In this document: positions 8,270 to 63,732 of the stretch, in pieces
How the letters are laid out: each line of letters opens with the position of its first letter
Numbering within the stretch: position 1 is the first letter of the stretch
Source: Cristatella mucedo
Taxonomy: Eukaryota; Bryozoa; Phylactolaemata; Cristatellidae
Length of the DNA: 64,000 bases
Direction of reading: 5' to 3'
Assembly (NCBI GenBank): GCA_009760855.2
Contig: WPIO01000072.1
Span: 852,501 to 916,500 of the forward strand
Position numbers and translations under genes: made by a program
Notes under the pieces: model-generated
Databases searched by the model: none
The model's input: only the letters and a program-made list of their open reading frames with translations
Told to the model about the DNA's origin: nothing

Positions 8270-8299
8270 TATCGAAATGTTATAACTGGGATCGGAAGT
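8165..8299. repeat. TA/TG microsatellite flanked by 24-bp direct repeats
   Basis: The array (TA)n(TG)n(TA)n is bracketed by two identical 24-base copies, 8165-8188 and 8276-8299, containing the core GTTATAACTGGGATCGG. The right copy lies just upstream of the start of LINE-B. Confidence 0.85.
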
Positions 8300-8325
8300 T
8301 CTGAAGACTTCCACAAGTAAGAAAA

Positions 8326-16611: not shown

Positions 16612-16746
16612 ATGGACGCTGGGAAGCCGCTGCCGGCGAAGCTGCACATGCTGTGCACACTGACAGGGGGACCTGATGAGACCGGCATGGACGACGTGCA
16701 GCTCGTGCCCGACTCGTCGTTCGGCAGCTTCTCGAGTGAAAACGAC
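16612..16746 (+). CDS. Gene 1 exon 1, start exon
   Basis: Codons 1-45. The ATG is the first in frame after an upstream TAA, and the exon ends GAAAACGAC|GTACGT in phase 0. The peptide starts [15 protein letters not shown] and ends [12 protein letters not shown]. The exon is GC-richer than the others. A likely acceptor at 16581 would make 16582-16611 5' UTR of the same exon. Confidence 0.65.
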
Positions 16747-19700
16747 GTACGTTGCGCTTTGCTGCCATCCCTTTTGGAGACCGTGCATTCAGCTTGTATG
16801 CTCCCAAAGCCTGGAACTCCCTCCCGACCTGCGTCAGAACATCCCCTGACCTGACCACATTTAAAAGGAACTTAAAAACATGCCTATTTAGGACAGCATT
16901 TAGTGGGTCCCTGTGATTCGTCCTTCATGTGCTTATGCGTGCTGACACTGTGCATGCTACCACTAACCACATTTGCATGCTGACCCTGTGCATGTCACCC
17001 CTAACCATATTATTCATTTTGTTTGATTTTCAAGCATGATTTTACTTACCATTCAATTGCATTTCCCTTTGCAGCAAATGTAAAGCGCCTAGAAAGAGAT
17101 TAAGTTCTCTGAGGGTGCTTTATCAAGTACATTATTATTAATATTATTATTATCCCATATCTAGTTTGCCCACGCCCTCTGGATGCTGGCCTGAGTGGCT
17201 TGCAGCGCTGTGCAGCACACCTGCCCATCCGCCCTGACTAGGGCAGATCGTCTTGTCGGGCTGGGTTCGAAGCCGTGGGTGCAGGCCCATAGTTTACGAT
17301 CAGCGCACGCTGCCTGTCCTGCCACACCGAGATGCACCTTTTGCTTCTTGGATATCGGGCTCGTGCTTTCTGGAAATTAAAGGCACGTGACAATAGTGGC
17401 ATCAGAAGTGAAAGTGACCGAAAGTGCAGATCTATGTGAGCAGCTTGGGCTGGCTCTCTACTTTACTGTGGAAACGTGATGGCAGTGAAGGACAAGGAGT
17501 AGGGGCCAGCCACGAAAGTCGCTCCTTAGCTTAAATGCTCGCCTAGGCAAAGTCTTTTGCTCTTGATCGCTAATTGGCCTTGGACATGAGCCATTTATGT
17601 TTATCACCGTGTGACTAGGTGGCTTGTTAGTCTATGCTAGGTAGTCACCTAGCCGGTCGGATTTCAGACCATCCGTGTTTTATTTACCAGCGATGTGGGG
17701 CAAAAGTGGAAGTGCGGTCGGTAGAGCCGAATCAACGGCATGTGGTCAGAGCCAGCTGACACGAAAACCATTCTCGTCCAGGCTGACTTCAGAATAGCTG
17801 TCACGGGAGATGCTGCCGCTTATTTCAACGCTACTCCGAAATTAGTTCCGCACTGTGAGTGAGCAGCAATAAAAAATGTAATTTTTTTGCATAGCCCCGT
17901 AAGAGAACAGAATCTCTATCCAGGCAGAGCTCTCGGATGTGGCCGAAGGAAGCAAGTTACTGCTGCAACTTGTCGGTGTGTCTTTCGTTCACATTCGCTG
18001 TTATAGGCCAGCAGAAGTTGGATGAGTTCGAAGCTGTAGTGCTGAATGAATGATGCAGTCCAAGCTTGGAAATGCAGAGCGAGGCAAGGACGAAAAAGTG
18101 CAAGCAGTGTCAAGGCTATCACTGCATCGCCATATCGTGACTCACTGCTCAGTCACTCGCTTCGCTTAGCAACTAGGAGGAACAGTAGCAGCCGAGCTAA
18201 GACGCCAAGAGCAATGAAGCTGCAACACATGGCCTGCCAGGGGACTGACCGTTACTGACATGCACTTGTGACTTTATCGATCTCAGGAATGTTCGTTTGC
18301 ATATATCGTATGCCCACATGTTATATTGGTGATCGAATCTTTCATGGTGAGCAGGTTTGATGTGAAGATTTAAATTACCAAGGCAGTGCATATAAAAATT
18401 GTATAGATAGATGTAGTGAGGGGAGGGAAGGAGAGTAGACGCCTGTGTGTGCTTTTCTGTCACTCGGTAGAGGTATTTTGTTGAACCGGGCAGGCAAGAT
18501 CACTGGTCCAGCGGTTAAGGTTCTCGCCCCGGCCAAAGTTTGGCTGAGGTCATGGGCTCGAGCCCCGAGGCACATGTGAAGCGCCTGAATAGAGATTAAG
18601 TTCTCTTGGGGCGCTTTATAAATGAATTATATTCTTTATCACCTGCACTAAGGCACCTGCCTCTAGCATCACTTTATGGCAATCGTATTTCGTGCTAGAC
18701 ATATCTAGATGCCTCATCAGAAAAATTGTAATCCAGAAGCTGAAAAGTTTCGATGAATGGTCATTCTTTATGGCTGACAGCACTCAATGACGAATTACTT
18801 CACTCCGTGGTCGAACTTAATCGCAGACATATTTCTTTTGTTGACTGCAGCGTGGCCTGGCTCGTTATTCTTTGGAAAAATTAAAATGTTCGATGGTTGT
18901 TAACAAGATTAGGTCGCAAACAATCAATCGTATATATATATATATATATAATTCATTTATATAGTGCCCCAAGAGAACTTAATCTCAATTAAGGCGCTTC
19001 ACATATGCCTCGGGGCTCGAGCCCACGACCTCAGTCAGACCTTGGTCCCCGGGGCGAGCACCTTAACCGCTAGACCTAACCAGCGCGGCATCTTCCAGTT
19101 TAAGACTTTCAGTCTGGTTGTTGTCAACCGCAGGATTTCTTTGCTGAGTACTCCGTGAAAGGAAGCTTACACCGGTCGCCGAAAGCTCCAAAGAAAATGA
19201 GCCGCTATTTCAAGCAGAAGCTAAAGAAGACACCAAACACGTTGAAGCGGATGACTGAGCAACACAGAATAAATGAAAGGTAAATATGTTAAGTACCCTC
19301 TATCTTCCTGCCTGCCTGCCCAATCTGCAATAATTGAAATACTTGCATAAGGTGCATGGTGGGTGCAAAAAGTACTCTTGCATTAATGAACACATAAGTT
19401 ATCTCAAAATTTTTAAGAACCCTTCCAACTTGCAATCTTAACGAGGCAGCCGTAGAAATTTGAGCTTATATTGAATTGCGATTGTTTGCAAAATGTTCCT
19501 CGAAGAGTGTTGCTGCAGAGCGTAGTCTAGCAAGAAAAAGATACGTCGGAAAAGCAACGCTCTCTAGTGCAATAGACCGCCTTAATTTGCCTCAATAGGT
19601 TCCCAATGAGCCCATAGAACGTTCTTGAGCAGCATCAATTGCCGTAGCTGAGTCTAAGCTGTGAGCTCTAACACAGCGTCCTCTCAGTCGGACATATTTC

Positions 19701-22700
19701 CTCGTGTCCTTTACGTGCTAATCAGGATGATGCATGGTTTTAGTCTAGGCAAAGTCATGTTTAATATGTATGATGAAGTGGAGGTGAAAGTCGGGTGCAT
19801 AGCTGTGTCCAAATGTTTTAGATCGCTATCTACCGTCCAGGTCAAGTTCTTACTCCAAAAAACCTGAGCCTGAAAATTATTAAATTTCAATAACTTCTGC
19901 AGAAGTGCATTTCTCGTTTTAGCATTTCAATAGCATCTGCACAAGTGCGTTTTGGGTCAGCACCCTATGAATGAATACTAACGGATTTAACAGCCTTTTT
20001 TGTATAGCGACAGAAGAGCCTTTGCGGTTATCACTACCGCTTGCAGCTGTGATAAAGTATCGCCCACCACAGCATTCGAACCCACTACCTCGTGACCGAG
20101 GTCGTCAAAAGCAACCGTCTTACCTAGTAGGCCATCACAGCTCACCAAGCAGCTCATATCCGCATTCTTCTGCTGCAAAATCAAACTGGCTGCTCGAGAC
20201 AGGGCTGTTGGGAGGCCAGGCCTGCTCGGCCTGGCATCTTGTAAAATATTCGTTTCTTACCTTTACTGAGACATTCTGAATTCACTCTCTCATCAGCCCC
20301 AGCAGTCCAATTTTAGTCGGCTACCGGTTGTATTATTCTGGTGACTCAGAAATGTATTTCACTGAGATGATATCGTCACCTTACCGACGGGGGTTTCCAA
20401 ACCCACCTCATTACAGAATCCGGTATGTGGTTTGCAGTTCGTTGGAGCATCACAAGCTTATGCTGCACCAGCCGCAAATGTTCGACTGTGTGCAGGCAGT
20501 GTATGCCAGTGGTAGCACTCTGTAATGCCTAGGTGCAAGCCGGGAAATGTGTGCGAGCAATGAAGCCACATGGCAAACGAAAATTCGAACGATGAACGGA
20601 GGAGTTACGCTACCACATTGCAACCCACCTCTATAACTTAGTAGCCTCAGTGACCATCACCTTTGTGACCATGGCGCACTTTCGATTGCTGATCGGCAAT
20701 TTTGTATTGATCTTCACAAAAAGCCTATTCATTTTGGAATATTCCATTCTGGTAGAGCCTAGTCTAAGCAATATATTAACAAAAGGCTGCTACTTGCTTG
20801 GCCCGTCACACTGGTTAGTCATTCCTGCACATGAATTCGCTTTCCATTCGAAAGCACGTGTGCCCATTCTCGCCAGCTGTACATCGATTTTTCTTCACTA
20901 TGTCGACATGATGTATTGGAACCAGATGGCTTGGGGAGCTAAAACGTCACCGTGTTTTGGGATCAAAATCAAAAGCAGTAGCAGCTATTTTTCGAAAGTG
21001 TAAATAAAGATGGCTTAGCAAATGTGAGATGTTATTCGGAAGCACTTTGTACATCTCTTCCAACATAAGGTGAAGGCCTCAAAAGAGCCCTTCAAATAGA
21101 CAAGTGGCTTGCGAAAAGGGTGGATTTAAATGAGCTAGTGCAAGACTTTGAATGGCTTGAACTTTGGGTTCATTGGGTTCAACCAGCATTCTGATGGCAA
21201 TAACGGATGTCATGAGAGTGTGAAAGGGTAGAACTACTGTCATAGTATGTTGCAATACCAAAGGTTCTGGGTGGCAGATGCTATTGCTCCAAAAGGTCGA
21301 AGACTGTTGAACATACGTTCTTTTATTCTTGGGAGTAATGGCACGGACACCTAAGCTTTGTTGCTAATGATCATGCCATTTTCTAATTGCTCGTCGCTTG
21401 GCTCCCCCATCACCACTTTCTTCCTCTACTGACCTCATGCAGCGACCAAACTTGCTACGTGTGTAGGAGTCCGAACTTCGAAAACCTTTCAGGCCGACGA
21501 CTTTTTTGACGGTCTGACAACATTCTTTTTGTGCCTTTGTGGAAAAGTGATAGCTGCTTATAATTAATGTTTTACTGCTTTCCCACTCAGTATTGTGAGC
21601 CGCTTATGTTTGCAGAAGACGTCATAATTCCCTGAACAGTTCCATCGAAAGCTTGGCAAGGCTTATACCTGGTCATTTCAACTCACAGGATACGAAGGTA
21701 AGAGTACAGTTCGCTGCCTGAGTAGCAGCAAACTTGGCGGCATTTGAATAAGTGTGTCAGCGACTAGTGACAAAGAGCTGGCTATCGATTACCCAGCATT
21801 CTCCGTGTACCAGGATTTTGGGTGACGGCATAATCAATGGCGATGCAGACAGTTTCATGTGAACCTCAGCATAGATGCCAGCCTGCGATTTTGAGCTCTG
21901 CCACACGTGTGCATGTGGGTGAGCGATTAGGCAGCTCCTCTGAGCCAGGTTTGGCCCTGGCCAGTGAACGAGAGAGCTTCCTTACGTTCCTTGTGACTTA
22001 TGCTTAGATAGTAAGAGACTGCAGCTGCCAAAGAGCATCGCATACAAGGAAATAATTAATCCACTATACTACGAGCAGTAATATACTGTATATATTTGCA
22101 TGGGCATGTATATCTATATTTAGTTATTTATACTAATGCTTGCAGGTAGATTTGTATGCACAATCGTGGCTACACGTATGCATTTTGTAATATCCTCGAT
22201 GTCTCCCAATGAGGTACAGGTAGATTGTCTTATGTGAGCGGCCAATGTCTAGTGGCTGGGCTAGCTGCAGATTTCGCACCTCTTTCTTCGTTCATCGCTA
22301 CGCCCACATTAGAGTTAAAAAAAATATCACCATTGGCAGTGACAGGGAACTCGTGCAGGAGCTGTGAGTACTAACCTGTGGCCCTCTCGAGCCATCATGA
22401 CTCCGAAGCGTGGATGCTGACAGGCAGGCAGACATGCTTGATCAGGCACGCCACTCATAGCGCTAGCCATGCAAGCTCTGCGTTCAGCCCCTCACTAAAG
22501 GATTTCTGCATACGACTGCAGTAAATTTCGGTTAAGGCACTTGTAGCTGCTGCACCATTGGCTAGCTTCTCAGTTGGCATCAGCCCTGGCTAGCGAACTT
22601 TACTGCTACCTCGCTTCACATGCTTCGCATAGGAACTAGCGAAAAGTATGGTTGAACTCATTCTGGAAATGCCAGCCTCTACTATCTACCGGCCGAAGTC

Positions 22701-24240: not shown

Positions 24241-24319
<79 letters not shown>

Positions 24320-27300
24320 AAATTGTGACTATCATTGCCGGTACAATTTCTTTTCCAATTAGCGTAGGAAAACGTGCATTAACCGGACTGATGGGATGTG
24401 CAGGAAAGAAAAGAGGAGAGAATTAGTAGTGTCGAATACGAAACGAGAGGTCTCTAAGTCTATGAGCTGTGATGAAAGATCCTTGGTGCTCGACCTGTAG
24501 TAGACTAACAGGAACTAGCTCCTTTTTGAAAATCATGTAGGTGAAAGTTTGCTCTCCTGCAAAGCTGAGGAGAAGTAATGAAAGCATATTGCCCTGACTA
24601 TGCCTTCCCTACATCGTTAAGAAATTAACCTTTTTTCAAATGTTGTCGGTGTAGGCTCAGAAATATCTAAACAAAGTAGCTAACCTGCCCAATGAGCTGC
24701 CCGATCTGTTCGCAAAAGGGATGGGGAGAGAGAAGTTCTTGAAAACCAAGCAGGGGTAGCTTGCCTCTTGCCTCCATTGCAGCGCTAAGTGGGCTTTGCG
24801 TGTCCAACTGCACCACAATTGGCGGTGCATAAATACCGGTATGTGGGAGAGTAGTCAGTAATCAACGGACAACCGGACGCAAACGAACTATGCGTGGCGC
24901 GGCTGAGGTGCTGGTCTAGTCCACCGTGCTTTATCTAGTTGCATTGGTCAACAATTCGCACAAAGACGTGAAAAATCTCTACTGTTGTAGTTAGTGTCCT
25001 TGGTATCTAGCCACTTTATGTTTATCAAGAAACCGTGTGCTCAAATGGATGACTTTTGTTGCTTATGCATGCATCATCGAGTTGTAATGCCAGTGCTTGC
25101 ATTTGTGACAGCCTAGTGCACTGCTGTTAATGCACCCGTCAACTGTTTTTTTGGGATAGGCTGTGGATACAGTGCTATTTTAAACGGCAAACCCAGTTAG
25201 CCTAACTTATTGCAGGTGTCTATTCTGCAGAAGCTCCTAGCGTACATATGCTTCCTTGAGCAAAAAGTTCTTCATTATAGTAAAGCACTGGGCATCGAAC
25301 CCCAGTATAAAAGGCGGTACCTGTCTGACTATATGGTTACCATGAAAGGTGAGTTGTCATTGCGAGTTTGGCAGGGTGCTGCATCAAAAGAAAACTGGTG
25401 AGCTAGACCTTACTCGGCTGCTTTCACCGTTATCAGCTCTGGACGACTTGCCGGATGACGAGCCACAGCCAGGCCTCGGCGCCTCTACCGCCTTAATGCG
25501 TCAGGATGCAGAGGACGATTTGTCAAACATGAATGAAGACAGTCTAGCCAGCTATGTGGGGCCCAGCGAGGTAAGCTGGTGAAAATTTTGCTCCCGGTGC
25601 TAAGAATCTTATGGTGAGCTTTTTCGGGTGATGTTGCTTAGATTTAGTTTTTGCCTTTTAGTTTTCGATTTCTTCGACTTTACCAGTGGCCGTGGAAAGG
25701 GTTTGTTTTGCTGTAACATCCTTAGCATCCTTTGAGGCATCTAAGAATTGGTCCGTGATTGAACGTCACTTGCATATTATTGGACCTCCATAAAACTCAG
25801 TAAAGTAACCGTTGGAAATAAATGCATTTGTGTTAAGTTGAGTTTAAATGATTTGCATTCTAAAAAATGTGCTCACGCATTCTACCTCTTCAACTGGATG
25901 TGTTGACATTTTGGCTCATCCACCTATTCGAAAAGTTATTTTGCAAACCCTGATTGTAGGAAGCTGCGAAAGCGACCCTAATCTTGGTAGAAAATGGCTA
26001 CTTCTCGGTAGGCAGCAACCAGGCCAGTATTGAATATTTTCATGGCGATGAATTAATGGTAAGACCAGCTTTGATTCGCATCTGAATTCTTAGTCAATAT
26101 CAGTTGCCACCAGCGCTGAAGCTCAGTCCTTCTGCCACTCGGACAAGCGCTGCCATCGGAATTTAGTAAGCAGCTGCAAGTGGTCGCACATACTACTAAG
26201 CTTTTATTCGCAGCCAGATATCATGCAGACGGCTGCCTTAGCTACGCTGGCGGCTAGTAACCTGCATGTTAGTTATGATCGTCAGCAGCTGTTATCGCTT
26301 CGTCGTCGTAGATCAAGTACATTCCTAGATATTATTGTTGTTGCTAAGATTCGTGAACTATGCATTAACAAAAGCAAAGCACTTCAGAACTGCCGAGGTG
26401 GCCGGAACCGCCAGCGGCCACTCGTTGGGCAGGAACTGCGAGCTGAGTACCTGCTCGTTTGGTATTCCTAGCATTGTCTAGAACCGCTCAGCACGCTCCA
26501 CCACAAGCGCTCCACCACAAGCGTCACTGTGAATCTCTCTAACTTAGTGGTCATCAGGCCTGTGATAACTCCATCTGCCTGACTTAACGCTTGCCTTTGG
26601 AATGCTCGCTCAATGTGCAATAAATCTCTGGTAGTAAGCGACCCTATTTCTGAAAATGACCTCGACCTGCTTGCCCTAACTGAAACTTGGCTAAATTCGG
26701 TAAACTGTCTGACAATTAAAGACGCTAACCAGACTGGTTTCTTATTCTTTCACACCCCTAGATTAATCAAAACTGGAGGTGGAGTTGTTCTTATCGTTCA
26801 CTCGAAATTCAGCTTCAAGTCATTTGCAGTACCCTCGAAGCAGTCTTTTGAATAGATTGTCTTGGTCTCACCCAAAAACAAGCTACCGCTGGTGGCAGTA
26901 GTCTATAGCCCACCAGGTACCAAATCCTCCTTTATCTCAGATTTATCCGATCTCTTTTTGATTCTGTGTGCAAGAAATCGATCCTTCTTCGTTATGGGTT
27001 ATTTCAAGATTAACTTTGATAACTTATCTGACGCCGTCAGCACTGAATTTCGTGCATTGACTGACTCATTGTCTCTTGTGGCTCATGTGCATGGCCCTAC
27101 TCACATCAAGGGTCACACAATCGACCAACTTTTCTCATACAACTGCACTTTGTCATCATCAATTATTACCAAATCCTGCTTATCTGACCACATGCAGATC
27201 TCATTCAGTCTACAGTATGTGCCTGCCTCCTCCTTATCTAAAATAACCTGTGAATCTCGAAACCTCAAGATCCTTGACATCGATGCGATCCACTCGAAAA

Positions 27301-39300: not shown

Positions 39301-39850
39301 AACGACTGTATATATACAAGATCAGATGAAGTTCACGCACTATTGAAATAAAACAACTCAGTATAAGTGGCGAATCGATAGCACGACCGACGGAGGCAGT
39401 ACGGCCAGCGCGGTGTCGGTAGAGGTCGACACGCGACGCCCAGTGCAGCAGCGGCTGTAGCCGGCGGTGCCGACGTCGGGAGGGGCGGCAGCTGATGATA
39501 CTACTAGGCGCTCACGCCTGCTGCCGAGTGTGTCTGCTGCTGGCCGCCTGGGGCAGAGCTTTGACCTTGTAATTGATAGTCTGCCGAAAATCGACCGCAT
39601 TTCTAATGACTATAATTTAAGAATATGTCATATATTATATACTATATAATATTTTTACAAGATATGTAAACAAGACAGTTTATATCCTGATATTTCCATA
39701 CAGGAGGGGAGGAAATGCCCTACGGGGGAGGGGGAATGTCCTACCTTAGGGGGAAGTCATGGGGAGGAATATCCATACCCCACCAGCACCCATATACCTA
39801 TAAAAGTAACTCGTGTAGACAGCAAATGATGTGAGGCATAAAGTGGCTTC

Positions 39851-39895
<45 letters not shown>

Positions 39896-42800
39896 GTAAT
39901 TATAAGACACTTGATAAAGCACCCTCTCAATCTCTTCTTGGCACTTTACATTTGCTGCAAAAGAAGCATGATCGAATGTCTGATTAGTGGTAGCAAGCTC
40001 AATAAACAAAAATAACATGGTAAGGGGTGACATGCACAGGATCAGCATGTAAGTATGGTTAGTGGCAGCATGCACAGTGTCAGTATGCATAAGCACATAA
40101 AGGTCGAATCACAGGGACCCACTAAATGCTGTGATAAACAGGTGTGTTTTTAGTTTCTTTTTAAACGTGGTCAAGTCAGGGGATGTCGTGACGAAATTCG
40201 GTAGTGAGTTCCAGGCTTTGGGGGCATGCGAACGAAAGGCACGGTCTTCAAATGATTTGAGGTTTGTACGAGGTAGTGGTAAACAGTTGGATTCCGGAAA
40301 GTGGGTGGGACGATGGTGCCTGGTGGAGCAGTAGATCTGATAGGTAGGCTGGAGCTAAAGAATGAAGGGACCTTAAAGTGAGCAACAAAACCTTGAAGTC
40401 GGTGCTTTGCTTGACTGGGAGCCAGTGCAGGTCGGCAAGAAGTGGTGTGATGTGGCAACTTCGACACTCACGGACCGACAAGCCTATCTGTGGATTTTTG
40501 CACCATCTGTAATTGCCTGATTGCACATGCCGGTAGGCCAGCAAGCAGCGAGTTACAGAAGTTAAGTCGGGATGTCACAAATGCATGGACCAACTTAAAC
40601 GTGGTATCCTTATCTAAACAAGCCCAAATTTTAGCAATTTAAGTAAGCTGAAAGTAGGCAGATTTGACTGTGGAGCTGATGCTGTCGTCTAACGAAAGGT
40701 CACTTTGGAACATGACACCTAGATTTCGAGCTGATTCAAGAGGAGGTATGCTGGCAGAGCCAATTTTGAGTGTCAGCCTTTCCAATTTCTGAATCACATT
40801 GGGTTTGCCCATAACTAGTAAGTTAATTTTTTATCATCGTTTAGTTTTAGAAAATTTGCTGCCATCCATGTGTGAATGTCATCAATACATGCAGCAAGTG
40901 AGTTGAGAGAATTCGAGGTGCTCGAAGGTTGGGAGGGATCAAAGCAAAGGTACAACTGAGTGTCATCCGCATAAAAGTGAAAGCCTAGATTGTGCGTGGC
41001 AATCACATCAGCAAAAGAGAGAGTATAAACCGGGAAAAGAACCGGACCCAGCACGGAGCCCTGAGGTACCCCATATTTCAGAGGTACCTCTGATGATCTT
41101 TGTCCATTCAAGTCAATATCTGGAGTCTCCCACGGAGATACGATCTTAACCATTGCAGAGCAGTGCCAGTGATGCCCAGGCGAGATGAGAGGTGCTCTAG
41201 AAGAACTTTGTGATTGATAGTATCAAAAGCCGCCGAAAGATTGAGCAAAACAAGCAGAGATACTCTCTCTACCCGTGTTTGCATTCCTAAGTAGGTCGTC
41301 GTGTACACCCGAAGCAATGCTGACTCTGTGGACTGATTAGCTCTAAAACCAAACTGGAACTTACTAGCAAGGTTTGAAGTTTCAATATATGACTTCAGCT
41401 GGTCTGCCACGACTTGTTCCAGTGTCTTTGATAAGAACGATAGAAGGGAGACTAGGGGAAAGTCGCTTAAGTTCTCTTGGTCCATTGTTGGTCACAGGTT
41501 CGTTCTAAATGTCAAGTCGGAGCCACGTCGTGATATCAGAGGCTAGGAAGTTTCAATCTGTGTGTGCAAAGGAACTGAAGGCACTGTCTTCGAAGGGTTT
41601 GAGATTGACTAGAAGAACAGCTTGGAAGACCAGAGTCAGGTAGGCACGTGGTACGATGGGAAGCCTGAGGAGTGAGCATTTAAGATTGGCAAGTCGGAGT
41701 AAAGACGCTAGAAGTCCTAGCCTTTGAAGGTTGGCAATAAAGGATCGCCACTTGCAGGATTCGAACCCACGACATCGGTCGTGTAGAACGGCCGCCTTAC
41801 CTCCTGTGCTGTGGCTGGAGATTTGAGTTTTCATAGGGTGCTATACTTAGTAATTTTATTTAATTTTTTTATCAAGTGAGTGAGACAACCATGAAATTGA
41901 TTGGCTGGTTGATGGATATTCAATGCAGGTCAGACAGGAGTGGTGCAGTACTTGGGAGGTTGTGACTCGAACGACAAACAAGACTAGCTGTATGGGTGTG
42001 CACCATCTGAAGGCTTCCTTATGCTCGAGTTGGATACCTGAGGAGAGAGATAGGGATAGATGTGCAGAACGTCTTAACGGCTGACAAGGAAGCATATTAG
42101 TGAGTTAGGAGCAATAAAAATAATTATACTTAAACAATCTCTGGCGGTTTAATATCAAAGAGTCTCTTGCATTTTGACAAAAAGGAACGATACCTGGAAA
42201 AAAGCCTTTACTAATGCATAGGTCTTTGAAAAGGTAGCGGTCAGCTGATTCAATAGTCATACTTACATAATGGCAATAGACCTTTGGCAGCCATCAATTC
42301 CACTTATTTCGATACCCGGCTGGCCTAACCCGTTTCTAAGCTGGGCAATTCAATTGCCGCATGCTTTTCACTAACCATTTTTGTCCAATGTAAATTGAAT
42401 GCGTTTGAGGCATTGAATCATCATAAAATCCGAAAACTAACTTTGACATTTGACGTCATCCTCGCTGAACTAGATCGCCGAACCAGATTGCAAAGCAGCT
42501 GATTTATTGGTGCTCTCATTTCAGTGTCAATCCTGGAGTGCATACCATGGATATGAACAGACTGATGGGCAAAGAATGGCGGTGCTTGGGGCCGAAAGAG
42601 ATAGGAGAACACGAGTAAGTAACGGCGGCGCCTTCTTATCTCTGTGCTTGATTGGACCAAGCTAGTGTTTTGTCTAGATGGAGGTGGAAATTATGTGGGA
42701 GCACAATCTCGACTTGTTAGCATCCTTCCACACAAAGTAAAGTAATTACTGAAGGCTTAAATCAGGTTGTTGCATAAAATTGTGCAGAAATAATAGTAAT

Positions 42801-45800
42801 GTAATTAGTAGTAATGTATGTACAATTATTGACTGATAATGTGATTAGAGATCGGGAGACTGACAGCAGGTATTAAAAAGATTTTGTGCTGCACCGCCCT
42901 GTTGAGTCCCGAGGTTAAGGTGCTTGCCTTTAACGACCAAAGCAAGATGAATACATTTGATGACCGAGATCGTGGGGTCGAGCCCTGTGGCATATGTGAA
43001 GTGCTTGGATGCAGATTAAGTTATCTTAGGGCTCTAAAACTGAATAATATTTTATATACATTATGTGGTTGCCATAAGCTCTGATATTCCTATAATAATA
43101 ATATAATCATGAATTAGCTGATTTAGCAGCCTTATTTTTATACTGGCTGGAGAACTTGTACAGCTATCACCACTGCTTGCTATGGGCAATAAAGAATCGC
43201 CCCTTTTGCAAGATTTGAACCCACGACTTGGATCGTGAAGAGCAAGAACCTCACCTCCTGGGTTAAGAATATTTCCTTCTTGACTGCTATGATGAGGGTA
43301 GAGAAATGTCATAGTCTGCTAATTCTAGATATTCCAAATACTTGAGTCCGAAAAAACGAGCCTTGATGCTTATGGCTGACCTAAGGAAGCAGTCACGTTC
43401 TATAGAGGTATTTATTGCATCGCATTCTCCAACTTCGCAATGTGAAGCTAAACAGTCTTCATTGCTTTGTAGGCATGAATCCTCTGAAAAATTGTAAAGC
43501 ATTGCAGAGTTAAGGAGATAGTTAAGGATATAAGTAGTTTACAGGTAGCGGTTAAGGATGAAAGAATCGGCACCTGCAGCAAAGATATCATCCTTGCATA
43601 AGAATTGGTTTCGGAAGTTAACCTTCAGTGCCTTATACACTAGGTCGCTCATAACAATGATCATTCTTTGTTACTTCAGACTGATAGCGAACATTCTTAA
43701 ACTATTGAGCTCTATTACCCAGATGTTTTGCTTTTCCTATCTGCAATGTGTATTTTGATGAATTTTTGAACCATTAACCTTAACCATTTTTTAACCATTA
43801 ACAAGCATTTGGGCTTTCAAGGCTGCTAATAACTGCCGGTTTGCCCCTACAAATGGACGTTGACTGTTTCGAAAAAACTTCCCACGATAGAATTTATGAG
43901 TAAATGGCCTAAGCATTCGTCCTTCCATGCGGATTTTCCTCGGGCTCCATTCTTCTGCAAGAGATCAACGAATGCACCTGTCGTTGTATAGGGCCAGTGT
44001 CATTACATTTCATTCGCGGCTGTGCAGTCTTTGCTTAGTGTTTGAATGTCAGCCGGCTAAGACCAACGGCTCCAGCCAACCAGTTTGAGATGCGCCCACT
44101 TTCTGAAAATGGCATGCCCAAGAATGCAGCATCTGAACTTCTGGTCACCATGATGTGTAATCTCCTTGACTGTCCACTTGCCGCCAACCTGCCTGCTTGG
44201 CTTGCTCCTTTATGTCAACGAGAAATGGTCAGTAGTGCGAGAATCAGTCGTTGCGAATGAGAATCTGACTAAATTGCCTGTAGTCGGACCATTGAATTCC
44301 CTACGGTTATTGTGGAGCACATTTTGCAATGCTCAGGCTGTCATGTGGAACATAATCATTTCTATGTTGAACCGATTGGTCGACCGTTTTTTCAGGAACC
44401 CAGCAAGTGGGTATTCAGGTGGTGTCAAGCAACCGCAGGCAAATGAGAATGCAGTCCTTTGGAGTTTTGAGGACTAAACATAGCAACGATGTATTTAGAC
44501 TGCTCGCTCAACAGCGAGTTCTTGCAGTCACCATTGTTATCGGCTTTGTACTACCACACTGATGAATTGCTGGTTGCTGTTTAATCTCGACTATGATCAA
44601 ATTACATTCCACTCTTGGCAATGTTGGAGCAGTTACTGCTTTTGTTTTGGTAGTGTACTTACCAAATATCTGCTATCTTCCATTTCTGAAGTTATTCGTG
44701 TATAGTGTTAGTAATGCAGTTGTAAAAAATGGTTTCTGTATCGTGAATATCGAGTAATCAACTCCATTATCCGGTAATGACAACAATTTGACTCTGTTTG
44801 AGCTTGCTCGTCGTATGTTGATTGTTTCAAAATTACTCCTAAACCGAAACATTTTGATTCTGGCAAATCTTCTGTCCTGGCAGTGATCTCTCTTACAAGT
44901 GTTGACATATGTGGCCGTTCGTTTATAGAATGGGCAGGGTGGAGAAGGGAAGATCCTCAAGTACCTGCTTGAAGGAGCTATTGGGGCAGGTCGCTGCCGC
45001 CATATCAGCTACTGATGATTAGGGCAGAACAGCGAGCTAGTAGTTGTGCTATCATCCAAGGGCCTTTGAGGGGGACTTGAAATCAGTAGGCCACCACATC
45101 CAAGAGTTACTGCCAGAAGTTGGAAAGAAAGCTGTCGTTTCTGGAAAAACAGTAAGAATCTCACATCTCAGATTTTTCCTATCGAGTGGAGGCGGCACTG
45201 CAAGGGCACAGTGTAGCAACTAGTCCTGGTATTAGATAAAGTTAGACTCACTCTTCTTGAAACTGAAGGCTTTTTAGATGTCCCATGAGCTTGGCGGGTC
45301 AGGATTGAATATAGGCTGATGTTCATAGAATCAGGATCAGATCACAGAATCCTCGGGAGCCAGACCAAACCAGCCAAGCCCACTCAGAAGATAGTCCTGG
45401 GGGAATTGTGGGTGCCAAGTTTGGCTAAGCATCGTTAATTTCGATACCGCACCCGAACAAGAAATAGATATGAAATAAATACCTGCTTTAGCGTCTGTAG
45501 GTGGATTTTTGTTTGGTTGGTTCTCCTAGCATTCGATTTTCTTGCCTTCTCAGGTCATCCAATCCATTTGATTACAGATAACTGGCAAAGAACAGACATC
45601 CGTCAAGCCTGATGCATCTGTAAGGTTATTTGTTAATTGCTGCATAATCTTTGTTTTTCTACAATTTACCCAGTGATTCAGTAGGGATATCAGTGGAGAT
45701 AATAATAATTATAATACATTTAATATGGCACCCTTAAAGAACTCAATCTCTTTCTAGGCATTTTATATTTGCTGCAAAGGAAGCACGATTGAATGGTTAG

Positions 45801-48800: not shown

Positions 48801-51013
48801 GCTTCCTTTGCTGCAAATGTAAAATGCCTAGAAAGAGATTGAGTTCGCTGAAGGAGCTTTATCAAATGTATTATTTTTATTATTAAAGCAAAAATTAAGA
48901 CAGCTGCTGTAAAGCACAGTAATTTGGAGTTAAATCGGCTCAAATCAGTTTCTACAACACTTTCGTATTTATTGAATGTCTCCTATGCCTGGGCCTGGCA
49001 TTGCCTGGCTATATTTGTGCATGAGCTGAGCAGAACCAACTCGATGGTTGGCATCTGTGCTGATACACATAGCATGATGGAAACACGTTCATATACGATG
49101 TATATTTCTGGAATTCAGTTCAGCTAAGCTCAAATTCAGGTATACTAATTGTATGCATTTATGTATACCCTGTTTGCCCCTGGATCTTAGCCCAGGAGGT
49201 AAGCTGCTAGCTCTTCACGACCCGGCCGTGGGTTTAGAGTCCTGCAGTGGGGCCAACCTTTATTGTTCACTGCAAGCGGTTGCTATAGTCGTTGAGGCTA
49301 TTCTGTCGTTATAAATGAGAGTATTAAATCAGCTAGTCGTATTCATATTTGCATCTGCATATATCGGTACCTTGTGTATACAGGTATATAAATACCTGTG
49401 AATCCGAGTATCTACACGTATAGGTTCGTGTATAAGTTCATCTACCCTGTACATCCTGAAATCGGAGCCTACCCATAAGCAACCTAGTATGGACGAGTAA
49501 ACATTCGCTGGAATGTCATCCTGGTATTGGCTCATTGTAATGAGTAGAGAAGTCACTGTACACACGGCTCTTTCTCCTAAATTGCTACAGTTTCAGCTAT
49601 GTGGTCTTAATGATTTAAAGCGATCTGCCCAGTCTAGTTTGTGGTCTGGCATCTCCTCTTAATTATACATGTTATCTAAAACTAAACGATGATAAAACTA
49701 ACTTACTAGTTATGGGCAAACCCAGTGTGATTCAGAGATTGGAAAGGCTGACTTTCAAAATTGGCTCTGCCAGCATATCTCCAGTTGAATCAGCTCGAAA
49801 TCTAGGTGTCATATTCCAAAGCGACCTCTCGTTAGACGACCACATCAGCTCCACAGTCAAATCTGCCTATTTTAAGCTTCATAACATTGCTAAAATTAGG
49901 GCTTGTTTAGATAAGGATACCACGTCTAAGTTGGTCCATGCATTCGTGACATCCCGTCTCGACTTCTGCAACTCACTGCTTACTGGCCTACCAGCATGTG
50001 CGATCAGGCGATTGCAGCTGGTGCAAAACTCTGCAGCTAGGCTTGTCTGTCGTGAGCTTCGCAGTTGCCACATTACTCCACTTATCGCCGACCTGCACTG
50101 GCTACCAGTGAGGCAACGGATTGACTTCAAGGTTTTGTCGCTCACTTTTAGGTCTCTTCATTCTATGGCTCCAGCCTATCTGTCAGATATACTACCCCAT
50201 CAGGCCAAGCATCGTACCACCCGCTTTTCGGAATCCAACAGTCTGGAAATACCTCATACAAACCTTAAATCCTTTGGAGACCGTGCATTCAGCTCGTATG
50301 CTCCCAAAGCCTGGAACTCCCTCCCGACCTGCGTCAGAACATCCCATGACCTGACCACATTTAAAAGAAACTTAAAAACACCTATTTAGGACAGCATTTA
50401 GTGGGTCCCTGGGATTCGTCCTTCATGTGCTTATGCGTGCTGACACTGTGCATGCTGCCACTAACCACATTTGCATGCTGACCCTTTGCATGTCACCCCT
50501 AACCATATTATTCATTTTGTTTGTTTTTCAAGCATGATTTCACTTACTATTCAATTGCATATCACTTTGCAGCAAATGTAAAGCGCCTAGAAAGAGATTG
50601 AGTTCTCTGAGGGCGCTTTATCAAGTGCAATATTATTATTATTATTATTACCGTGGTCATTCAAGATCGGATGGGCAAGGATACAGCAAACGTTTATAAA
50701 TAAGTTGCTTACTCAATAATAAATCGTGGCTATTGAAAGCTAGGACTGGACTCACTCTGAACTCGAAGCTGTGAAGCCATTGTCTTTATGCATAGACCAC
50801 GTGCATCCCGATTTCAAAGACAATCCCTACCTGTCATTGCCAGGATAGTAACTACAAAAATACCATCGTGTTTTCCTGCACCACTCATTTCATGGCAACT
50901 CTTTTTATAAATAACAGAGGTTTTTTCTGCATGAAACAAATTTGATTTGGAAAACCTTCACAGACAGTGCCTACAGTCACATCCTGGAGGGCAGACTAGT
51001 TTCTAGCACTTAA
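16612..51013 (+). CDS. Gene 1: bHLH-HMG-box transcription factor, MEIOSIN (BHMG1)-like architecture; 11 coding exons
   Basis: Joined exons: 16612-16746, 19134-19279, 21616-21697, 25216-25348, 25437-25570, 34842-35004, 35734-35950, 42525-42614, 45061-45151, 45578-45619, 50918-51013. All have AG/GT borders and matching phases, giving 442 codons plus stop. Residues 83-139 form a bHLH: basic region with H89, E93, R94 and R96 (the ERxR E-box contact set), helix 1 [14 protein letters not shown], a short loop, helix 2 [18 protein letters not shown]. Residues 166-210 are acidic. Residues 266-269 are VKQE, a sumoylation consensus. Residues ~318-385 resemble an HMG box ([15 protein letters not shown], then [11 protein letters not shown]). 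bHLH plus HMG in one protein is known from vertebrate MEIOSIN, which with STRA8 switches on meiotic genes. A nuclear DNA-binding role is inferred; orthology is not proven. The last three exons are the least certain, and small exons may be missing. Confidence 0.75.
16757..17155 (+). mobile_element. LINE-A, 400-bp 3' copy in intron 1
   Basis: It begins in the C-terminal domain (TTTGGAGACCGTGCATTCAG) just 10 bases after the exon 1 donor and runs through [18 protein letters not shown] and TAFSGSL to the 3' UTR hairpin and (ATT)n tail. Same strand as the gene. Confidence 0.85.
17190..17290 (+). mobile_element. Possible third tRNA-like SINE
   Basis: An A-box-like TGGCCTGAGTGG and a B-box-like GGGTTCGAAGCC are separated by about 75 bp, as in a tRNA-derived SINE head. 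I see no second copy in the window. Confidence 0.3.
17880..17935 (-). mobile_element. Decayed LINE/SINE 3' hairpin
   Basis: GCATAGCCCCGTAAGAGAAC, AGAATCTCTATCCAGGC is a recognisable reverse copy of the shared LINE-A/SINE-1 terminal hairpin. Flanks are unrecognisable. Confidence 0.4.
18488..18640 (+). mobile_element. SINE-1 copy in intron 1
   Basis: Near full length: CTGGTCCAGCGGTTAAGG, B-box GGCTCGAGCCC, then GTGAAGCGCCTGAATAGAGA, TTAAGTTCTCTTGGGGCGCT and TTATAAATGAATTATATT. It is very similar to the 13262 copy. Confidence 0.85.
18947..19075 (-). mobile_element. SINE-1 copy ending ~60 bp before exon 2
   Basis: Minus-strand copy with tail ATTCATTTATATAGTGCCCC, B-box GGCTCGAGCCC and the reversed A-box CCGCTAGACC. 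A (TA)n run flanks the tail at 18930-18950. It sits close to the exon 2 acceptor. Confidence 0.8.
19134..19279 (+). CDS. Gene 1 exon 2, start of basic region
   Basis: Acceptor TTGTCAACCGCAG, phase 0 start, donor GAAAG|GTAAAT in phase 2. Codons 46-93 plus two bases. The C-terminal part is strongly basic ([19 protein letters not shown]) and supplies H89, N92 and E93 of the DNA-binding basic region. Confidence 0.85.
19280..21615. other. Gene 1 intron 2
   Basis: Contains the SINE-2 at 19990-20150. A 117-codon frame at 20650-21003 has no domain, no splice support and an arbitrary start, so I do not treat it as a gene. Nothing else is recognised. Confidence 0.5.
19990..20150 (-). mobile_element. 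SINE-2 copy
   Basis: Minus-strand copy: AGCGACAGAAGAGCCTTTGC, GTGATAAAGTATCGCCCACC, B-box region GCATTCGAACCCAC and the A-box half TTACCTAGTAGGCC. Close to full length. Confidence 0.75.
21616..21697 (+). CDS. Gene 1 exon 3, bHLH helix 1 and loop
   Basis: Acceptor TATGTTTGCAG, donor ACGAAG|GTAAGA. One base completes R94, then codons 95-121. It encodes [19 protein letters not shown] followed by the loop. The spacing of I104, L107, L110 and I111 fits the hydrophobic face of helix 1. The exon joins exons 2 and 4 in phase and completes the bHLH, which is the strongest single argument for the model. Confidence 0.9.
23008..23628 (+). mobile_element. LINE-A, 620-bp 3' copy
   Basis: It starts at [21 protein letters not shown] and runs through [36 protein letters not shown] and TAFSGSL to the hairpin and (ATT)n. 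It shares private variants with the inner copy at 27886-28406 (CCTCGATGTGC, CTGTTCATGCTG, ACCCAGTGCATGTAACCCC), so the two are recent sisters. Confidence 0.9.
24186..24317. repeat. (TC)n microsatellite
   Basis: A short TC run at 24186-24204 and a pure TC run of more than 70 bases up to 24317. The Ser/Leu-repeat frame read through it is not a gene. Confidence 0.95.
24829..24860 (+). promoter_or_regulatory. TATA-like motif with downstream TCAGT
   Basis: GCATAAATACCGG is followed about 25 bp later by GTCAGTAATC, an initiator-like match. It lies 390 bp before gene 1 exon 4. An alternative promoter there would give a protein lacking the basic region. This may be chance. Confidence 0.2.
25216..25348 (+). 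CDS. Gene 1 exon 4, bHLH helix 2
   Basis: Acceptor CTTATTGCAG, donor ATGAAAG|GTGAGT. Codons 122-165 plus one base. [18 protein letters not shown] is a standard bHLH helix 2 (compare the usual IL.KA..YI..L). Helix 2 seems to continue as a short coiled coil (VLHYSKALG) and is followed by a Tyr/Arg-rich stretch ([10 protein letters not shown]). Confidence 0.9.
25437..25570 (+). CDS. Gene 1 exon 5, acidic segment
   Basis: Acceptor CTTTCACCGTTATCAG, donor GCGAG|GTAAGC. Two bases complete codon 166, then codons 167-210. The segment is acidic ([24 protein letters not shown]), which is common in activation regions. The upstream intron is only 88 bp, the shortest in the gene; phase rules out the nearer AG at 25374. 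Confidence 0.85.
25960..25986 (+). CDS. Possible 27-nt microexon of gene 1
   Basis: CTGATTGTAG|GAAGCTGCG...ATCTTG|GTAGAA is bounded by AG and GT and would add nine codons (EAAKATLIL) in phase 0 between exons 5 and 6, both phase 0 there. The signals are weak and it may be chance. Confidence 0.2.
26223..29940 (+). pseudogene. LINE-A ORF2 (endonuclease-RT), broken
   Basis: Endonuclease blocks: [17 protein letters not shown] (catalytic Glu), [26 protein letters not shown] (GDFN in the 38.0-kb copy, so the active-site Asp-Phe-Asn is mutated here), [11 protein letters not shown] and CLSDH. RT blocks after the insertion: [44 protein letters not shown] and [12 protein letters not shown]. Stops after SKQSFE, at 27360 and near 28634, and a 2-base deletion at 28929 relative to the 46.9-kb copy, destroy the frame. 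The thumb and C-terminal domain (29455-29940) remain open. Confidence 0.85.
27886..28406 (+). mobile_element. LINE-A, inner nested copy
   Basis: A 521-bp 5'-truncated copy starts at TTTTGTCGCTCACTTTTAGG and ends with the (ATT)n tail. It is flanked by AATG on both sides (27882-27885 and 28407-28410), a probable 4-bp target site duplication. Removing it restores LINE-A reading from [10 protein letters not shown] into [13 protein letters not shown]. Near-identical to the copy at 23008-23628. Confidence 0.9.
30175..30458 (-). mobile_element. LINE-B 3' fragment
   Basis: Minus-strand copy of the last ~280 bp of LINE-B ([43 protein letters not shown]) with the ACATTACA end at 30175. It abuts the LINE-A tail at 30157, so the two elements lie tail to tail. 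Confidence 0.9.
30460..31004. other. Unrecognised intron sequence
   Basis: No exon or clear repeat. A peptide near 30810 ([10 protein letters not shown]) recalls the HIKGYTIDQLFS block of the LINE endonuclease and may be a very old LINE remnant. Confidence 0.35.
31005..31135 (+). mobile_element. SINE-2 copy, diverged
   Basis: B-box GGTTCGAATCC, then ACCTGCAAGCGGCGGTGATT and TTAAGGCTCTTTTACCGCTA. The tail is lost. Confidence 0.65.
31540..31655 (-). mobile_element. LINE-A 3' end fragment
   Basis: AATAATAATAATGCACTTGA, GCGCCCTCAGAGAACTTAAT and CTCTAGGCGCTTTACATTTG mark the intact terminal hairpin on the minus strand. The copy stops after AAATCATGCTTGATAAA. Confidence 0.85.
31660..32289. other. 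Unrecognised intron sequence with two AATAAA motifs
   Basis: AATAAAGG near 31970 and AATAAAGA near 32214 are polyadenylation-signal-like. The second is followed by TTGAGTCTCG and a sequence ending CTGTTGACACA, which could be the remains of an LTR, but no paired copy is seen. Confidence 0.3.
32290..33860 (+). mobile_element. LINE-C, decayed CR1/L2-group element
   Basis: Recognisable in pieces: [11 protein letters not shown] at the start, a decayed [11 protein letters not shown] block near 32510, [14 protein letters not shown] near 32740 (FYADD changed to FYADN), and a C-terminal block ([20 protein letters not shown]) at 33440-33510. The 3' end has GAAGTGCCTGGATAGAGATT and TAATAATAATAATT. Many stops and indels; much older than the LINE-A copies. 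Confidence 0.7.
33861..34841. other. End of gene 1 intron 5, nothing recognised
   Basis: No repeat family or exon recognised before the exon 6 acceptor. Open frames at 34625-34930 (minus) lie opposite exon 6 and are its shadow. Confidence 0.4.
34842..35004 (+). CDS. Gene 1 exon 6
   Basis: Acceptor GCTACTTTTGCAG, donor ATCCACG|GTAGGA. Codons 211-264 plus one base. The peptide [20 protein letters not shown], through [15 protein letters not shown] to SATFDLIH, matches no domain I know. Uniform open reading between good splice sites and correct phase on both sides support it. Confidence 0.85.
35020..35245 (-). mobile_element. LINE-A 3' UTR copy directly after exon 6
   Basis: An impure AAT/AAAAT tail begins 16 bases after the exon 6 donor, followed by CACTTGATAAAGCACCCTCA, CTTTCTAGGTGCTTTACATA and the 3' UTR blocks ACACGGTTAGGGGTGACATG and GTGGTTAGTGGCACCATGC. 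Confidence 0.8.
35247..35345 (-). mobile_element. LINE-A 3' end fragment
   Basis: A second tail (ATTAATAATAATAGTGCATT) and hairpin (GCGCCCTAAGAGAACTCAGT, TTTCTTGGCACTTTACATCT) follow immediately in the same orientation. The two copies are head-to-tail neighbours or one copy inserted in the other's UTR. Confidence 0.75.
35734..35950 (+). CDS. Gene 1 exon 7, VKQE motif and start of HMG box
   Basis: Acceptor GCCCTTTTTTCAG, donor ATCAA|GTAAGT, both excellent. Two bases complete A265, then codons 266-336 plus two bases. It opens with VKQEP, a match to the psi-K-x-E sumoylation consensus, continues through a Ser/Ala-rich linker, and ends with [20 protein letters not shown], which resembles HMG-box helix 1 (compare the usual P-M-N-A-F-M-x-F). 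Confidence 0.9.
35951..36504. other. Intron 7, left part
   Basis: Simple AT- and CT-rich sequence without recognised repeats or exons. Confidence 0.4.
36505..36575 (+). repeat. C-rich arm, left
   Basis: Repeated ACATTTCCCC / GGACATTCCCCC units. The same motif continues at 38608-38636 on the far side of a LINE-A insertion and appears inverted at 39702-39765. Confidence 0.7.
36576..38597 (-). mobile_element. LINE-A with internal deletion, inserted in the C-rich repeat
   Basis: On the minus strand it has an endonuclease domain ([37 protein letters not shown]), the linker, the RT start ([20 protein letters not shown]), then a jump from the RT fingers near 36960 straight to the C-terminal end ([20 protein letters not shown]), hairpin and (ATT)n. 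The RT palm including FYADD is deleted. Flanks carry ACATTCCCCC on both sides, possibly a target site duplication, though the host repeat itself contains this motif. Confidence 0.85.
38608..38636 (+). repeat. C-rich arm, continuation
   Basis: ACATTCCCCCCTGTAGGACA followed by TTTCCTCCCCC, the same motif and orientation as 36505-36575. Confidence 0.7.
38675..39308. mobile_element. Mariner-like MITE, copy 2
   Basis: A 634 bp copy in the same orientation as 844-1495. Left end AAGTCGTCCCTCGTTTATTG is preceded by TA; right end CCAGGAACGACTG is followed by TA. The interior aligns with copy 1 throughout (for example ACCCAATATATT and GACTCAGACAACCGAG). No transposase. Confidence 0.8.
39702..39765 (-). 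repeat. C-rich arm, inverted copy
   Basis: GAGGAAATGCCCTACGGGGG and GGGGGAATGTCCTACCTTAG are the reverse complement of the motif at 36505-36575. Confidence 0.7.
39850..41487 (-). mobile_element. LINE-A, 1.6-kb copy with long (AAT)n tail
   Basis: A tail of about 14 AAT units is followed on the minus strand by the 3' UTR, C-terminal domain, thumb, [25 protein letters not shown], the [12 protein letters not shown] block, [19 protein letters not shown] and DQENLSDF. Truncated inside the RT fingers near 41487. It shares a 2-base deletion and surrounding variants with the 26165-30157 copy. Confidence 0.9.
41550..41720 (-). mobile_element. Degraded LINE C-terminal fragment
   Basis: Minus-strand peptide [20 protein letters not shown] followed by [11 protein letters not shown] resembles the [12 protein letters not shown] region of CR1/L2 ORF2 but is not LINE-A or LINE-B. 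Confidence 0.45.
41725..41850 (-). mobile_element. SINE-2 copy, diverged
   Basis: TTGGCAATAAAGGATCGCCA, B-box GGATTCGAACCCACGAC and GCCGCCTTACCTCCTGTGC match the family in reverse orientation. Confidence 0.6.
41880..42110 (-). mobile_element. Degraded LINE thumb/C-terminal fragment
   Basis: TGCAGGTCAGACAGGAGTGG, ACAAACAAGACTAGCTGTAT and GTGCACCATCTGAAGG correspond to the LHWLPV..RI / RLVC / LQ.VQN region of CR1/L2 elements on the minus strand. Confidence 0.5.
42525..42614 (+). CDS. Gene 1 exon 8, HMG-box helices 1-2
   Basis: Acceptor GCTCTCATTTCAG, donor CACGA|GTAAGT. One base completes N337, then codons 338-366 plus two bases. [25 protein letters not shown] fits the HMG-box pattern (P at the helix 1-2 turn, L-G-x-x-W in helix 2, then L-x-x-x-E) and follows exon 7 in phase. 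Confidence 0.9.
42893..43052 (+). mobile_element. SINE-1 copy, diverged
   Basis: GAGGTTAAGGTGCTTGCC, B-box GGGTCGAGCCC, then CATATGTGAAGTGCTTGGAT and GATTAAGTTATCTTAGGGCT. Confidence 0.7.
43125..43270 (-). mobile_element. SINE-2 copy, diverged
   Basis: CTATCACCACTGCTTGCTAT, GGCAATAAAGAATCGCCCCT, B-box region GATTTGAACCCACGAC and CTCACCTCCTGGG in reverse orientation. Confidence 0.65.
43290..44395. other. Intron 8, possible alternative exon
   Basis: 43290-43600 may be an old minus-strand LINE remnant. 44053-44260 is an open frame starting after ATGTCAG with the phase exon 8 needs and ending in TGA ([20 protein letters not shown]); it would be an alternative last exon but has a weak acceptor. 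Confidence 0.3.
44396..44477 (+). CDS. Alternative terminal exon of gene 1
   Basis: Acceptor CGACCGTTTTTTCAG is strong. The one-base start phase fits exon 8. The 27-codon frame ([26 protein letters not shown], then TAA) ends cleanly. Use of this exon would give a ~393-residue protein ending shortly after HMG helix 2. Whether it is used cannot be told from sequence. Confidence 0.35.
44478..45060. other. Intron 8, right part
   Basis: No repeat family recognised. Minus-strand frames at 44673-44960 show no domain or splice pattern. Confidence 0.4.
45061..45151 (+). CDS. Gene 1 exon 9
   Basis: Acceptor GTGCTATCATCCAAG, donor AAAACA|GTAAGA. One base completes codon 367, then codons 368-397 ([30 protein letters not shown]). 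Helix-forming and basic at the end, as HMG helix 3 and its tail would be, but similarity is weak. Phase fits both neighbours. Confidence 0.6.
45578..45619 (+). CDS. Gene 1 exon 10
   Basis: Acceptor CATTTGATTACAG, donor GCATCT|GTAAGG, phase 0 on both sides, 14 codons ([14 protein letters not shown]). Short, so the evidence is only splice signals and phase. Confidence 0.55.
45702..45950 (-). mobile_element. LINE-A 3' UTR copy
   Basis: Tail ATAATAATTATAATACATTT, hairpin remnants GAACTCAATCTCTTTCTAGG and GCATTTTATATTTGC, then the UTR blocks ACACGGTTAGGGATGACATG and CACCCACTAAATGCC. Moderately diverged. Confidence 0.8.
46050..48885 (+). mobile_element. LINE-A, old outer copy, interrupted
   Basis: The left half (46050-46813) carries decayed RT ([16 protein letters not shown] at 46338, ADDTQFYL near 46425, the [11 protein letters not shown] region near 46670) and stops inside the ACCACGTCTA of the thumb. 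The right half resumes at 48185 with AGTTGGTCCATGTATTTGTG and runs through the C-terminal domain to a hairpin and tail near 48885. Many frameshifts. Confidence 0.85.
46814..48184 (+). mobile_element. LINE-A, young inner nested copy
   Basis: A 1.37-kb 5'-truncated copy starting at the [19 protein letters not shown] block and ending in (ATT)n. Intact blocks: [51 protein letters not shown]. Small indels near 47450 and 47650 break the frame. It sits exactly inside the codon string DTTSK of the outer copy; at most 2 bp (TA) are duplicated. Confidence 0.9.
48890..49189. other. Intron 10 sequence, nothing recognised
   Basis: An open frame at 48924-49127 has no domain and no splice context. Confidence 0.4.
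49190..49345 (+). mobile_element. SINE-2 copy, diverged
   Basis: AGGAGGTAAGCTGCTAGCTC, CACTGCAAGCGGTTGCTATA, GTTGAGGCTATTCTGTCGTT and ATCAGCTAGTCG match the family along its length; the B-box is mutated. Confidence 0.7.
49672..50650 (+). mobile_element. LINE-A, young 980-bp copy
   Basis: It starts at [20 protein letters not shown] and stays open for 225 codons (49712-50389) through [42 protein letters not shown]-like and [13 protein letters not shown] small deletion near the end changes the last residues. Hairpin GCGCCTAGAAAGAGATTGAG and (ATT)n close it. Among the best-preserved copies. Confidence 0.9.
50918..51013 (+). CDS. Gene 1 exon 11, terminal
   Basis: Acceptor CTTTTTATAAATAACAG, phase 0, 31 codons then TAA. 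The peptide [20 protein letters not shown] continues [11 protein letters not shown]. It fits exon 10 in phase. No AATAAA was found close downstream, so the 3' end is open; another downstream or intervening exon is possible. Confidence 0.55.
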   Translation, partial: RFFLHETNLIWKTFTDSAYSHILEGRLVSST

Positions 51014-54767: not shown

Positions 54768-61748
<6,981 letters not shown>

Positions 61749-63571: not shown

Positions 63572-63732
63572 TTGTCAAGAGTGCTGTGCACCAGTGCCTA
63601 ACTGGAAACTTCTCAAGACTCAGCATTAGGTCTGCATTTGGCAAAAAACCAAAGACTGTTCGAGTATGCTCACTTGTCTGTTGGTCAGAGCAGACTTCGT
63701 ACGTCATGGTCATGTAGCCAGCATTGCGGAGG

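Follow-up and report, generated by a model that had tools for sequence, protein, structure and literature searches.

Gene structure and genomic setting

The window analysed here is a 64,000-nucleotide stretch of the genome of the bryozoan Cristatella mucedo (C657:852501-916500; the genome searched comprises 572 Mb in 688 contigs). Its plus strand carries a real spliced gene, probably for a two-domain protein, with a basic helix-loop-helix (bHLH) domain followed by an HMG-like part. Nine exons with AG/GT borders, beginning with an ATG at 16612 and ending at 42614, can be spliced in one consistent phase to give 399 codons and 2 further bases, with no internal stop:

16612..16746, plus strand: exon 1, 45 codons with the start codon and the N-terminus; codon bias p 0.0055, donor in the top 11.8%
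19134..19279, plus strand: exon 2, a basic linker leading into the first half of the basic region (...TEQHRINER); donor in the top 0.5%, 25.9 bits bHLH with exon 3
21616..21697, plus strand: exon 3, remaining basic region, helix 1 and loop; 34.2 bits bHLH with exon 4
25216..25348, plus strand: exon 4, helix 2 and subsequent residues; donor in the top 0.1%, Pfam HLH 34.6 bits across exons 2-4
25437..25570, plus strand: exon 5, acidic linker; donor in the top 0.2%, codon bias p 0.04
25960..26058, plus strand: exon 6, linker, the least certain of the nine; acceptor in the top 12.7%, donor in the top 0.5%, codon bias p 0.22
34842..35004, plus strand: exon 7, linker; acceptor in the top 1.4%, donor in the top 3.7%, codon bias p 0.03
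35734..35950, plus strand: exon 8, linker and HMG helix 1; best acceptor class, donor in the top 0.4%, 23.5 bits HMG with exon 9
42525..42614, plus strand: exon 9, HMG helix 2; acceptor in the top 2.4%, donor in the top 2.3%, matches SOX-17 together with exon 8 (E 7.7e-4)

The donors of exons 2-9 rank within the top 0.1-3.7% of the 3,642 GT sites in the window, that of exon 1 being weaker on the same scale, and the acceptors of exons 2-9 fall within the top 0.0-12.7% of its 4,201 AG sites. Codon usage, judged against 1,619 codons from other genes of the same genome (some of them picked by eye), is coding-like for exons 1-9 as a set (Stouffer p 1.9e-4), with three of the nine below 0.05 individually. 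Skipping exon 6, whose 99 bases are flanked by phase-0 borders, would leave the frame intact.

Downstream, on the same strand and 12 kb 3' of exon 9, starts a gene for an EML-family microtubule-associated protein, which occupies 54768-64000 and a further 11 kb beyond the window, with coiled-coil, HELP and WD-repeat exons. When its pieces are put together, the product matches human EML1 (4ci8) with an E value of 4.2e-167.

54768..54780, plus strand: first coding EML exon (MAET...), placed by its phase with the next exon
55216..55371, plus strand: EML coiled-coil exon
61600..61746, plus strand: EML HELP-motif exon, from the joined pieces against human EML1; the WD-repeat exons lie beyond the window end

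This neighbour bears on the identity of the gene. The human chromosome 19 locus is described in PMC5897035 as holding EML2, FBXO46, SIX5 and DMPK around QPCTL, and human BHMG1 (also called MEIOSIN) is listed between FBXO46 and SIX5 in PMC6888582. We give this EML synteny moderate weight, since EML was considered only after it had been seen. A tblastn search with fragments of SNRPD2 and SIX, further neighbours of human BHMG1/MEIOSIN, turned up no relatives in the 264 kb surrounding the gene. Other flanking genes include a TLC-domain gene (32.6 bits) and NIF phosphatase matches (58.8 and 24.0 bits), all over their Pfam cut-offs, together with RCE1-like and UBR-like genes recognised by eye. An Argonaute-like Piwi-domain exon (25.0 bits, cut-off 28.9) lies upstream of the gene on the minus strand, at window minus 19.1 to 18.3 kb (L016-L017). 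None of the NIF phosphatase, TLC, Piwi-like, RCE1-like and UBR-like genes is known as a neighbour of MEIOSIN.

The window is also rich in repeats. Many reverse-transcriptase-like frames occur on both strands, at 8286-9962, 10734-11453, 26856-29940, 37974-41491 and 46796-50389, along with their recurring 3' tails, which close with runs of ATT; they resemble L2/CR1 LINEs. Long simple repeats, pure (TC)n and near-pure TC/CTCT, occupy 24243-24317 and 59745-59918.

The bHLH domain and the HMG-like part

The bHLH domain is rebuilt from exons 2, 3 and 4 exactly as had been proposed. With a 426-residue query that includes a doubtful tenth exon, Pfam HLH matches residues 87-135 at 34.6 bits (E 1.7e-8), over its cut-off of 20.7, placing the domain near the N-terminus of the predicted protein, as in MEIOSIN/BHMG1. 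In the basic region, HRINERRRH, the E and R residues of the ERxR core typical of E-box binding are preserved. Matches of the same 426-residue model in the PDB (45 sequences at E values of up to 10, with alignments shown for four) are weak and all of the bHLH kind, with HMS1 best (E 0.0016) and a Max/E2-alpha chimera and Myc next.

The HMG-like part is recognised as helices 1-2 only, lies C-terminal in the model and is united with the bHLH domain by splice phase. Across these helices, phmmer aligns 39 residues to SOX-17 with no gap (E 7.7e-4), and the match ends past helix 2. Pfam profile searches, which had been suggested as a check, returned a mixed answer: HLH is above its cut-off, whereas HMG_box stays under its cut-off of 25.4, at 14.5 bits for the whole 426-residue model and 19.3 bits for exons 8-9 alone. 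NCBIfam and Rfam searches gave no matches. The two helices had been expected on exons 7-8; they are indeed there to be rebuilt, but on exons 8-9 in the present numbering, so the original prediction seems to have omitted one of exons 5-7.

Chance resemblance was gauged by enumerating exon pairs at fixed splice thresholds and scoring each pair with a bHLH and an HMG profile assembled from provisional family sequences. Among 1,015 splice-compatible pairs on the plus strand of the window, the best bHLH pairs were exons 3+4 (34.2 bits) and 2+3 (25.9 bits), and the best HMG pair was exons 8+9 (23.5 bits). On five control strands (the minus strand of the window and both strands of the 100 kb on each side), 0 of 9,120 pairs reached 10 bits with either profile, at splice thresholds that were fixed after the exons' own splice scores were known. 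Exon 9 joined to other partners already gives 15.5-17.3 bits, indicating that this exon carries most of the HMG signal.

Downstream of exon 9 the model is not firm, and a verified 3' end was not found. Before 51 kb, none of 301 continuations and 178 splice-scored exons makes a good HMG helix 3. Of the 301, the three with the best profile scores fall within recurring retroelement tails and were discounted as chance matches; the one at 48126 scores 25.1 bits with Pfam. With a retroelement tail as the top scorer, a score means little in this region. Three other candidates are listed here:

43329..43407, plus strand: candidate exon 10, doubtful; with it the HMG score in Pfam drops from 19.3 to 18.4 bits, codon bias p 0.33
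45105..45151, plus strand: alternative helix 3 candidate, doubtful; with it the HMG score in Pfam rises from 19.3 to just 19.9 bits, acceptor poor (top 68.9%)
50964..51013, plus strand: candidate for the presumed last exon, with a TAA stop at 51011-51013; acceptor only in the top 25%

Five partly overlapping candidates after exon 9 show, in combination, no bias in codon usage (p 0.19, against 1.9e-4 for exons 1-9). The gene had originally been drawn as eleven exons and 442 codons. The nine in-phase exons listed above are confirmed; those drawn past HMG helix 2, and with them the total of 442, are not confirmed. Nor can the gene be said to end at 51013: the stop codon is present, but the candidate exons that lead to it have weaker splice signals and lack codon bias.

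Placement among bHLH and HMG families

Searching the genome with the predicted protein, with the best candidates scored, we found that all nine exons match this locus alone below E 2 (E 3.1e-40 to 1.7e-9); five further matches, including a SOX gene and a MyoD-like gene, range from E 2.26 to 8.8. Of 64 HLH matches in the genome at E 0.1, 43 were covered by 41 pieces that we typed against 21 families. Separate loci were found for AP-4, MYC, MAX (two), MLX (two), SREBF, MITF, MNT and MXD among others, and likewise for ARNT-like, CLOCK-like, TCF3 (two), MYOD, TWIST, HES and other types. Identity as AP-4, MYC, MAX or another of the typed families was accordingly rejected, as orthodox copies of these lie elsewhere in the genome (within the 43 of 64 matches typed). 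The existence of these separate copies means that the gene in the window is none of AP-4, MYC, MAX, MLX, SREBF, ARNT and CLOCK. SOX genes also lie at loci other than the window.

MEIOSIN/BHMG1 had been named as the only well-known family with both domains. It is not the only one: STRA8 is likewise described as having a putative bHLH and a putative HMG box, in the same order (PMC9604137; PMC6392498, Appendix 1), and a Stra8 ortholog has been reported from amphioxus (PMC3769385). The mouse STRA8 sequence used for comparison (length 393, HLH 28-79, glutamate stretch 143-193, HMG 216-268) agrees with the coordinates published in PMC6392498. The MEIOSIN sequences that we compared are provisional fragments, and the comparisons and trees below that involve MEIOSIN are leads and not tests.

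For the HMG-like part, similarity to the MEIOSIN fragment (z 12.0) is below that to SOX2 (z 13.4). By score, the MEIOSIN fragment ranks sixth of 12 from the side of the window gene, the window gene ties for third of 12 from the side of MEIOSIN, and SOX17 outscores MEIOSIN in both directions (raw score). Unlike SOX proteins, with which it shares the ungapped alignment over helices 1-2, the window gene has MNG in place of MNA and a linked bHLH, and helix 3 was not found. In a tree of 13 HMG rows, the MEIOSIN fragment is the sister of the HMG-like part of the window gene (support 73/79). Neither the HLH nor the HMG-like region of mouse STRA8 resembles the window protein (z 0.2 and -0.6); a search of the C. 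mucedo genome with the same STRA8 sequence gave nothing at E 10, which is uninformative in itself, the search having had no positive control.

For the bHLH domain, the MEIOSIN HLH fragment matches the window gene with a score of 44 (z 4.2), and the best pairwise match is AP-4, with a score of 90 (z 13.8) over 47 ungapped residues. Trees of this domain had been suggested as a check on the assignment, and their answers are unstable. When provisional fragments of both MEIOSIN and STRA8 are included, the domain of the window gene joins MEIOSIN (95/86, bootstrap unsettled). When STRA8 is left out, the two are apart, and neither forcing them together (p 0.325) nor joining the domain to AP-4 (p 0.155) is rejected. 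In a tree of 43 rows, in which nine human-host pairs carry starred support, the domain sits on a long branch, paired with no family; here too, neither MEIOSIN (p 0.264) nor AP-4 (p 0.37) is rejected as its partner. The best 43-row tree places it outside the MYC/MAX/MXD/MNT group, a grouping that is itself not rejected (p 0.129).

Interpretation and alternative readings

On this evidence, we lean towards reading the locus as a spliced, single-copy protein-coding gene for a nuclear bHLH and HMG-like transcription factor, most likely the MEIOSIN ortholog of C. mucedo. MEIOSIN is the best single label because the domains come in the same order and an EML gene is adjacent, as near human BHMG1/MEIOSIN. 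The gene also resembles MEIOSIN/BHMG1 in having no clear likeness to STRA8. Of the MEIOSIN-like architecture that was originally proposed, the gene model shows a bHLH and, C-terminal to it, an HMG-like domain recognised as helices 1-2. Two differences stand out: HMG helix 3 was not found between exon 9 and 51 kb, and the window gene has an intact ERxR basic region that is absent from the mammalian HLH fragment compared. Among the matches listed in our search for literature on MEIOSIN/BHMG1, which ran over sources other than subscription journals, no title or abstract names an invertebrate MEIOSIN.

The closeness of the bHLH domain to AP-4 lends itself to another reading, in which the gene descends from an AP-4-like bHLH, either as a fusion confined to its lineage or as an ancient bHLH-HMG protein of independent origin, and has neither MEIOSIN orthology nor a meiotic role. 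AP-4 shares with the window gene the NERRR basic core as well as the highest score, the AP-4 gene of C. mucedo has a phase-0 intron at the same place before helix 2 (MAX may share it), and AP-4 was not rejected as partner in two of the trees. We nevertheless consider this reading unlikely. AP-4 has no HMG box, C. mucedo has its own orthodox AP-4 at a different locus (L055, contig C98), and past helix 2 the sequence departs from the AP-4 zipper; the matching domain pair, its order and the adjacent EML gene would moreover have to be coincidental. The gene could also encode a STRA8-type protein or stem from an ancestor common to STRA8 and MEIOSIN, before the two split. In favour are the putative bHLH and HMG box of STRA8 and the Stra8 ortholog reported from amphioxus. 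We regard this reading as rather improbable, given that neither domain resembles mouse STRA8 and that the long glutamate-rich stretch of the mouse protein is absent between the two domains.

Two further readings concern the gene model itself. The bHLH part (exons 1-6) and the HMG-like piece (exons 7-9) could be two genes or pieces misjoined across an 8.8 kb intron rich in retroelements: exons 6 and 7 are joined by phase alone, for which there is one chance in three, and retroelement-like frames lie between the parts at 26.8-29.9 kb. Both parts, however, lie on one strand with strong splice sites in each, the HMG part has neither a start of its own nor a full box, and the domain order is that of MEIOSIN, so we hold a misjoin, too, to be a fairly improbable explanation. 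That the exons are an artefact or the remains of a decayed gene, chance open frames that happen to resemble domains, is already very unlikely. The shortness of the exons and the missing helix 3 would suit it; the empty pair control, nine exons free of internal stops and the codon bias over exons 1-9 argue against it.

If the gene is a MEIOSIN ortholog, a mode of action can be proposed by analogy with the mammalian proteins. The HLH would dimerise with a partner, which in mammals is STRA8; the HRINERRRH basic region would contact E-box-like DNA, the HMG part would bind or bend DNA, and the complex would turn on genes of meiotic entry in germ cells. The mammalian MEIOSIN HLH fragment presumably has no ERxR-type basic region. 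The intact basic region would then be the most interesting feature of the bryozoan gene should orthology hold, both because the mammalian fragment lacks one and because mouse STRA8 is described as binding CNCCTCAG and not an E-box (PMC9604137, PMC6392498). We tentatively suggest, as a possibility on which we would not yet rely, that this is an invertebrate MEIOSIN with a complete E-box-reading basic region, in which case the factor would predate vertebrates, would have begun as a conventional E-box bHLH with an HMG box, and would have lost the DNA-reading part of the bHLH later in mammals.

The age of the STRA8-MEIOSIN switch is in question, as Stra8 is reported missing in several fishes (PMC3769385, PMC9178102) and yet present in amphioxus, and the regulation of meiotic initiation is described in PMC6392498 as little conserved. 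The present gene may be an old relative of this mammalian meiosis-starting switch. Were it orthologous and expressed in the germ line, a non-vertebrate bHLH-HMG gene would make the age of the switch testable outside the mammalian retinoic acid setting, and its intact basic region, if orthology is true, would tell what DNA the ancestor read.

The genome-wide survey yielded further observations on bHLH and HMG genes. MAX (L056/L058), MLX (L052/L054) and a TCF3-like gene (L059/L060) are each present in two copies, and among eight HMG loci, SoxB1-like and SoxC-like genes each have more than one copy (several SoxB1/B2-like and three SoxC-like loci, L001-L007); these duplicated bHLH and Sox loci may reflect large-scale duplication. 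Between one SoxC box and SOX-4, 58 of 77 residues are shared by a count in the printed alignment; this is far from vertebrate SoxC and points to a probable invertebrate. Six near-identical partial HLH matches, at a regular spacing of about 8.7 kb on two contigs (C103:428307-454413 and C371:16693-25472), may be a tandem array or a repeat.
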